Source of the DNA: Lachnospiraceae bacterium
GTDB taxonomy: Bacteria > Bacillota > Clostridia > Lachnospirales > Lachnospiraceae
Direction of reading: 5' to 3'
DNA: 37,335 nucleotides
NCBI GenBank assembly: GCA_021769135.1
Contig: JAETTM010000041.1
Location: 1 to 37,335, forward strand
How positions within the stretch are numbered: the first letter of the stretch is position 1; each line of letters opens with the position of its first letter. The notes beneath the pieces were generated by a model. It saw only the letters and a list, made by a program, of their open reading frames with translations, was not told where the DNA came from and did not search any database. This document shows positions 36,320 through 37,335 of the stretch, one piece after another. The translations under genes and the position numbers were made by a program.

Positions 36320-37335
36320 TTATTCCCCTTCATGAAGCCTTGCATAAATTCTATTGCAATCGTAATCCGGTGCCTCTTTTTGCGCAGCAAGGCAGATTTT
36401 CTCCACCAGTTCCAGGCTTTCTTCCACCTCGTCCGCTATTTGTTCCAATCTTTTCCCTTTGCCCAATTTTTTGCATATTTGGTTTATCAACTGCTTCTCT
36501 CCACCTTCTGCCAAACCCTGGATATGCCCCTGTTCCAATCCCTGTTCCAGCCCCTGGCCTAATCCTTGAGTATGGCCTTCCTCATAGCCCTCTTCCTGTA
36601 TATATGCCTTTTCTTCCCATAGCTGCATATATTTCACCCCCATTTTCTCCGACAGCTTGATTCTTTTCACCTGTTCATGTATCCGTTTTATCCTCTGGCT
36701 CTCCGTCTTTTCCGCCATTTCATCCGTTGTATTGGTAATATAATGAATTGCGCTGATGCGCAAGCAGGTCATCAATTTCCTAACGGAAATTGGTGACATA
36801 TAATATATTCCATAAAGTCCAAAAATTCCTGCGGGAAATCCCCTTTGTTTTTCCCTTTAGTATTGATGAATACCCTCAAGGCCCCATCATCCAGCCTTAA
36901 GTCCGGGCATTCCTTGCAGGCCCCTTCAAAGGTATAACGGTACAGCCCCCGGCCAAAGATGTCGAAAGGGGCCATCAGCACCAGGCAGCTGTCATTCAGA
37001 AGGTTGAAGTCCTTGCTCCCCGGTTCCAGCAGGGATACATCCAGCTGCGCCTGGTAGTACCGGCTCCTCCGCCTTAAGTTCTTCGTGTCCTTCTGCTGCA
37101 TCTCCGTATAGTACAGCTTCCCGCCCTTGTCCATGCCGATGACATCCAGCCTGATTTCACGCAGCTCCGGCGATACCCGGAACTCCTTTTCCGTCTCCGG
37201 TTCGGTCAATAGCCGGATGTCCTCCCCCAGCAGGATGCTCACCGCCGCCTGGTAGGACTCCCTGTCCTCCATCACCTCGTCGAACAGGAACCGGTTTATC
37301 AGGTTTAAGTCCTTTAACTTTGTGGCTACGTTATT
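36320..37335 (-). pseudogene. Rpn-family nuclease split by a 65-bp insertion
   Basis: The gene enters from the right edge without its start. The visible frame begins NNVATKLKDLNLINRFLFDE, runs through the PD-(D/E)XK core (IRLDVIGMDK, YYTEMQQKDTKNL, RRSRYYQAQLD) and reaches DFMEYI, then stops at about 36772. After the insertion (36737-36801), another frame continues TNTTDEMAEKTESQ through a coiled region and a G-x-x-Q-G repeat tail to 36320. Deleting exactly 65 bases joins both into one normal Rpn protein. The downstream part has no stops or other damage, so the break is recent or is somehow tolerated. A paralogue lies at 17345-18376. Confidence 0.8.
36737..36801. mobile_element. 65-bp hairpin element inside the Rpn gene
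   Basis: The insert is flanked by AATATA at 36737-36742 and 36802-36807, which looks like a 6-bp target duplication. Inside are two hairpins: TTGCGC/GCGCAA with a 4-nt loop (36748-36763) and a 13-bp stem with one G-T pair and a TAAC loop (36768-36797). It encodes nothing. It shifts the frame (65 is not a multiple of three). Confidence 0.75.

Follow-up and report, generated by a model that had tools for sequence, protein, structure and literature searches.

The window, which is the whole 37,335-nucleotide stretch of contig JAETTM010000041.1 (assembly GCA_021769135.1) from a Lachnospiraceae bacterium, ends in a gene of the Rpn family that is read on the minus strand and is interrupted by an insert. 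The N-terminal part of this gene was matched by NCBIfam TIGR01784 (Rpn family; E 9.1e-12, 45.3 bits, under the cut-off of 52.1) and by Pfam PDDEXK_2 (21.9 bits, under the cut-off of 27.4). The plus strand at positions 36737-36809 reads AATATAAT, a 57-nt element, and AATATATT. The features of this region are listed below, each with what it is based on.

36737..36744, plus strand: left copy of the probable 8-bp target duplication (AATATAAT); sequence, and the empty site in paralogue C119
36745..36801, plus strand: 57-nt element, very probably mobile, in its own (promoter-ward) orientation and antisense to the Rpn gene; identical 57-mers at C136 and C114
36748..36763, plus strand: short hairpin with a 6-bp stem, TTGCGC/GCGCAA; fold, with 4 of 6 pairs changed on both sides among related copies
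36768..36797, plus strand: long hairpin with a 13-bp stem that contains one conserved T-G (U-G) pair; fold, with 7 of 13 pairs changed on both sides and the U-G pair kept in 86 of 88 sequences
36802..36809, plus strand: right copy of the probable 8-bp target duplication (AATATATT); sequence
36772..37335, minus strand: N-terminal part of the interrupted Rpn gene, running off the contig end and stopping inside the element after 187 amino acids; open reading frame, with TIGR01784 and PDDEXK_2 both below cut-off
36320..36799, minus strand: C-terminal part of the Rpn gene, an open frame of 159 amino acids from an ATG inside the element; open reading frame, matching the C-terminus of the 312-amino acid frame of C119

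The original prediction had been that 65 bases interrupt a single Rpn frame which continues intact beyond them. Both statements were confirmed. The closest paralogue in the same genome, on contig C119, is 98% identical over 179 amino acids; it has no insert, and its frame stays open for 312 amino acids to the end of its contig. By comparison with it, the net gain at the Rpn site is 65 bases (57 + 8). The frame beyond the insert is open to a stop codon. TATATT, which had been noted on both sides, is indeed present but constitutes only the inner 6 bp of a complete repeat of 8 bp with one mismatch, the two flanking 8-mers being identical at 7 of 8 positions (AATATATT and ATTATATT on the gene strand). 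Similarly, the two predicted hairpins are both real, but the 13-bp stem is complete on the plus strand only: it includes a T-G pair, whose gene-strand counterpart is a C-A mismatch. When the gene strand was folded as DNA, a free energy of -16.4 kcal/mol was obtained (z = -5.95), and none of 200 shuffled sequences folded as well. The insert stops the full-length Rpn frame, and we infer that the full-length product is lost; the interrupted gene is likely to be a pseudogene.

The insertion site was compared in the less distant Rpn homologues, namely C119, C114, and five others. An empty site, the presence of which had been proposed as a check, was found in six of these genes (C119, C17, C36, G001 C60, G001 C43, and G002 C34). 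The seventh, paralogue C114, is filled and carries the identical 57-mer at the same codon as the window copy (C16). The flanks of the C16 and C114 copies agree at only 179 of 247 and 194 of 238 positions (72-82%), and going outward from the element they first differ at base 3 on one side and at base 7 on the other. The right side of the C114 copy reads CAG ATT, so that of the matched TAT ATT only ATT is kept; its downstream frame is open, in the same arrangement as the C-terminal frame of the window. Because identical 57-mers are found in paralogues with diverged flanks, the comparison suggests that the element either inserted twice, and recently, at this codon or was transferred in a very short tract of gene conversion. 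The same 57-mer is present at a third place in this genome, C136, which, judging from the comparison of loci, lies outside the Rpn genes.

The element was found to be a dispersed repeat. In the 4.43 Mb draft genome to which the window belongs, 35 matches were obtained at E <= 0.001, the window copy included, and 36 were obtained with another copy as the query. Across the genus, the element was detected in 7 of 16 genomes, and outside the genus in 0 of 45. A degenerate pattern run against a collection with one genome per species returned 106 stretches, every one of them labelled Lachnospiraceae, Schaedlerella, Clostridium, Dorea, Blautia, Eubacterium, or Hungatella; labels such as Blautia, Hungatella, and Eubacterium are the submitters' names, and the taxonomic placement is therefore as submitted. 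The same pattern gave no matches in viral contigs. The loci examined yielded 194 distinct copies, of which 152 are full length; copies identical in sequence and flanks were counted once, and some genomes are present twice under different names. Neither a solitary copy nor the same 65 bp in all orthologues was found, an outcome that favors mobility. Head-to-tail arrays of three to five units that hold single -10 boxes in common were observed at L093 1503-1820, L096 2136-2327, and L210 6954-7141, as if copies had inserted into the end box of each other.

The two stems are paired in 97.5% of the cells of an alignment of 88 element sequences, which were hand-picked from 138 unique sequences with near-duplicates and the most divergent sequences left out. 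Changes on both sides were found in 11 of 19 pairs, and on each of five measures of covariation none of 500 shuffles scored as high. Part of this signal could come from correction of the palindromes during replication. One pair of the long stem, however, is U-G in 86 of the 88 sequences, and such an uncorrected pair argues that palindrome correction is not the whole cause. This pair also identifies the strand that pairs fully as the one running towards the downstream gene. The length of the element in the 88 sequences ranges from 51 to 59 nt, and multiples of three are not kept. An Rfam search of the window stretch gave no match, and a further Rfam search gave a single below-threshold match, which lay outside the element.

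A long form of about 123 nt was observed in two metagenome-assembled genomes (CAMWYM and CAMWYJ); its ends are unchanged, and its long hairpin is enlarged by some 66 bases of RNA-like appearance. It occupies at least 13 loci, including L254 2172-2294, and in 12 of the 13 listed the extra bases are nearly identical; paired changes are found in L201. An Rfam search of one long-form locus returned two below-threshold matches (E 3 and 4.2), neither of them close to the threshold of a family. Since the interior of the long hairpin varies while the ends stay the same, this form suggests that the ends of the element and the feet of its stems may matter for movement.

The usual landing site of the element is a promoter. 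The consensus upstream of the left box is TRTGN, which is the extended -10 motif, and the overall pattern is TRTGNTATAAT with a -35-like hexamer 17 bp upstream, as in a promoter of the sigma-A type. Agreement with TTGACA peaks at the 17-bp spacing, with a mean of 2.36 of 6 (86 copies), all other spacings between 10 and 25 giving means of 1.2-1.9. The summed agreement at 17 bp was 205 (87 copies) compared with 141 for shuffled sequences, for which the maximum was 174 (0 of 2000 as high). Neighboring genes were assigned by a mechanical census of open reading frames, in which 105 of the 152 full copies were classified after exclusion of 22 copies too near an end, both Rpn copies among them, and 25 inner members of tandem arrays. 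Eighty of the 105 lie between reading frames with the next downstream frame in the direction of the element, at a median distance of 65 bp. The remainder comprise 10 for which the next frame is on the other strand, 13 inside called reading frames, and 2 between abutting frames; the next frame is thus co-directional for 80 of 90 intergenic copies. Among the 13 copies inside reading frames, those in three AAA-ATPase genes and in a HEPN frame are regarded as real, the other frames being short or doubtful. At the Rpn site of the window, the insertion point is a -10-like word (AATATATT) inside coding sequence, and no -35 box was seen by eye. A further small palindrome (AAGCGAAGCTT or GGGCAGTGCCC) was noticed directly before the ATGATATAAT box at L156, L157, L221, L243 (JAIDHZ), L218, and L224 (JAIDOW).

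The uninterrupted state of the box can be seen in relatives. At one locus (L130), the genome of the window reads TGTGCTACAAT, element, GCTATAATAGAACAATTTG, and the box is uninterrupted in 5 of 11 relatives examined. Two of these align on both sides, G006 (TTGTGCTAAAATAAGATAATTTGG) and G001 (TATGCTAAAATGAGATG), the comparison with G001 being not perfectly clean because it also lacks some 17 bases further downstream; G008, G009, and G011 were matched through the downstream gene. G002 has a shortened element at this locus, and no clear counterpart of the box was found in G003, G004, G007, G012, or G015. Three relatives were aligned at a second locus (L127). In G002 and G001, two boxes are separated by GAAT and AT(G), respectively, which looks like loss of the element with both copies of the repeat left behind, or alternatively like two neighboring boxes from the start; the alignment of G015 covers the gene only. 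Judged from the sequences, most copies interrupt and duplicate a promoter -10 box; for an element of this size, such a choice of target is unusual.

The flanks of the element are GNTATAAT at most loci and TATAATAG at some. In the 51 copies with TATAAT on both sides, the preceding variable base agrees in 41 cases, for an expected value of 19.1 (0 of 2000 shuffles). Agreement between the flanks was also determined for 114 copies, after 43 partial or edge copies, 27 tandem copies, and 10 copies with no clear end had been dropped. It exceeds the expectation at positions -8, -7, -4, and -1 in both subsets, the agreement at -1 partly reflecting the two target types, and is weak at -6 in one subset and at -3 in the other. 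The target duplication is most likely 8 bp in length. Position -2 is A in 74 of 76 left flanks versus 49 of 76 right flanks (copies with no second copy after them); since conservation here is confined to the left flank, the terminal AT on that side could be part of the element itself, which would reduce the duplication to as little as 6 bp. The duplication is often imperfect, and in 60 of 132 copies the exact repeat that ends at the left boundary is 3 bp or less.

Copies were also found inside other protein-coding genes. Three paralogues of an AAA-ATPase_like/PDDEXK_9 gene (C33, C130, and C14) contain an in-frame 63-bp version of 21 codons at the same codon (L145 2374-2436 and the equivalent place in L149 and L150). 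Uninterrupted frames of 584 and 590 amino acids are present in two of these genes, and the third is apparently broken elsewhere. The three inserts agree at 61-62 of 63 positions, the 250-bp flanks agree at 69-75%, and all three have the same differences between their two flanking repeats, which suggests a single event. Five other copies of this gene have no insert (L135; L086, which is the same as L230; L174; and two in L196). In JAMPGS010000021, a HEPN-domain reading frame contains an in-frame copy in the other orientation. By the look of these frames, the element can become protein. An element found mostly at promoters can thus add 21 codons to a protein or disrupt a defense nuclease.

Taken together, the insert in the Rpn gene is very probably a recent copy of a 57-nt, two-hairpin mobile element that lacks terminal inverted repeats and usually occupies a -10 box of the sigma-A type. 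A tiny mobile element with target duplication and an interrupted Rpn gene was the simple reading of the original prediction, and it is borne out by the dispersed copies, the empty paralogous site, the identical 57-mers, the duplications, and the box that is uninterrupted in relatives. A putative enzyme acting in trans would recognize the hairpins or the ends of the element and make a staggered cut around the -10 box, and the 5' leader of the gene downstream would then begin with the inserted element. In the Rpn gene, the element stands in a -10-like word, and the 65 net bases broke the frame. Separate translation of the C-terminal domain being known for Rpn genes, this domain may still be made alone from internal starts, and the C-terminal frame with its ATG in the element might be expressed. 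A more specific version, which we offer tentatively and consider rather unlikely, is a new class of mobile element that inserts into a promoter whose -10 box has been melted in the open complex. Such an element would move as a folded single strand or as RNA and would duplicate the 8-bp box on entry; the promoter would stay usable, and the element would be carried along as the 5' leader of active genes. Most descriptions of small mobile elements place them in AT-rich intergenic spacers; here the landing is on the -10 box itself. By landing on and duplicating this box, the element could give many genes new leaders and still leave them active, and such insertions would offer a natural test of whether open complexes of RNA polymerase serve as targets for transposition.

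The strongest competitor is a single insertion into an Rpn gene that was then inherited or spread between paralogues by gene conversion, which we regard as a real possibility but not the expected one. The shared codon of C16 and C114 and the mosaic appearance of the Rpn paralogues are in its favor, as is the apparent single event in the AAA-ATPase genes. The inserts of C16 and C114 are nevertheless identical within flanks that differ from the third and seventh bases onward, and the same 57-mer recurs at C136, apparently outside any Rpn gene. It is also conceivable, though unlikely in our estimate from the reading frames, that the Rpn gene now operates as two overlapping genes, a nuclease part and a C-terminal, antitoxin-like part translated from the ATG of the element or from an internal start of its own. 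The C-terminal frame of the window does begin at an ATG within the element, C114 is arranged likewise, and separately translated C-terminal domains of Rpn proteins block the full-length protein, according to the portion of PMC10327210 that deals with them. By eye, however, any ribosome site in front of this ATG is weak at best, and since both copies look recent, their open frames prove little.

Two further explanations are less probable still. The element could be a structured 5' leader, that is, a regulatory RNA copied by ordinary recombination, the position after the -10 box resulting from selection for function and not from targeting. Covariation, the U-G pair fitting an RNA of the element strand, the co-orientation with genes, and the tandem copies all agree with this, but the variable base of the flanking repeats follows the locus, the junctions are sharp, copies inside genes occur in both orientations, and selection alone does not create a duplication. 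We consider it improbable as a replacement for mobility; a function as leader could be added to mobility. Translational bypassing, which had been put forward as the less likely reading, would have ribosomes leave at TAT-ATT and land on TAT-ATT past the insert to produce one full-length Rpn protein. The window does contain in-frame, matched TAT ATT on both sides with hairpins between them, and the downstream frame is open in C114 too. Most classified copies, however, lie between genes ahead of a co-directional frame, where bypassing would be meaningless, and C114 retains ATT only. In addition, insertions with identical 57-mers look too young for an intact frame to reveal selection, and the copies in the AAA-ATPase and HEPN frames can simply be translated. 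Bypassing at TAT-ATT is thus not supported, and we give it almost no weight.

The mobile element shares properties with several known systems. Bypass elements, such as those of T4 gene 60 and the mitochondrial byps, have hairpins between matched codons, as does the window; the present family differs in being mostly outside genes and in that the matched codons are not both kept in C114. REP/REPIN sequences moved by Y1 (RAYT) transposases and the ends of IS200/IS605 elements have hairpins close to both ends, tiny non-autonomous units, and tandem arrays, all of which are found here. IS200/IS605-type elements insert without target duplication, in contrast to the element described here. The foot of a REP/REPIN palindrome carries a GTAG or CGTC tag, as given in the relevant part of PMC3733652, and by eye this tag is absent from both strands of the 57-mer of the window. 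The element further differs from REP/REPIN sequences in its target duplication and in having a carrier genome, G001, with 12 copies and no Y1 match, and the REP-like label of the original prediction therefore fails on the features tested.

Bacterial MITEs (Correia, ERIC, RUP, QMITE, and MITEAba12) are described in part of PMC10969869 as short, multicopy, mostly intergenic sequences with target duplication and stable stem-loops, several of which affect neighboring genes. The element shares these five properties, the flanking target duplication being often imperfect. It is distinguished from MITEs by its length of 57 nt, two unlike hairpins, landing on the -10 box, and the absence by eye of terminal inverted repeats, the ends GAATTGCG... 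and ...GTGACATAT not being inverted repeats of each other. No parent insertion sequence was found among the Y1, IS256-type, and ISL3-type families searched. The Rickettsia palindromic elements, which the same part of PMC10969869 describes as short mobile sequences of about 150 bp that encode a conserved peptide and occur in frame within protein-coding genes, share in-frame insertion, here limited to a minority of copies (the AAA-ATPase genes and the HEPN frame). The present element is shorter (51-59 nt), promoters hold the majority of its classified copies, and interrupted genes are few. No description of the element, or of a MITE targeting a promoter box, was found in the listed titles and abstract beginnings of open-licence articles in PubMed Central. 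The element is likely to represent a new family of small mobile elements.

Searches of the Y1, IS256-type, and ISL3-type families found neither a mobilizing enzyme nor an autonomous relative, and because no mobilizing gene was found, the element is presumed to have moved in trans. In the five genomes searched for Y1 transposases, matches were obtained in four (G000, 2; G002, 7; G003, 1, weak; and G015, 4) and none in G001 with its 12 element copies, which argues against this enzyme. Twelve of the 14 Y1 loci have no element match in the stretch examined; one Y1 gene of G002 is about 1.4 kb from a copy (L071), and another has a weak partial match (L078). IS256-type genes were rejected because their presence in 13 of 16 genomes includes 6 of 9 non-carriers as well as all 7 carriers. 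Three of 14 IS256-type loci (L317-L319) have long inverted repeats (TGTAAAAAAT...) that are unlike the ends of the element, and the other 11 have no clear ends, only short and doubtful inverted repeats. The ISL3-type was set aside since the 3 of 16 genomes with a match include two carriers (one match below cut-off), so that 5 of 7 carriers have none. A scan for a left end with no nearby right end and a right end up to 6 kb away revealed no gene-bearing element among the best 25 end pairs. Where the flanks match at 7-8 of 8 bases, the pairs span 100-124 nt and include some tandem copies; one pair 671 bp apart matches at 6 of 8 flank bases with other ends inside.

Two minor observations concern the Rpn genes themselves. 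At about 36525-36560 of the window, the C-terminal part of the Rpn gene has one GLEQ unit (12 bp) more than C119; four-residue repeats of this kind are said in part of PMC10327210 to tune the specificity of Rpn proteins. A common sequence follows an element copy at L131, L133, and L141, and in two loci (C36 and C8) this sequence lies upstream of an Rpn gene, so that some Rpn leaders also appear to carry the element.
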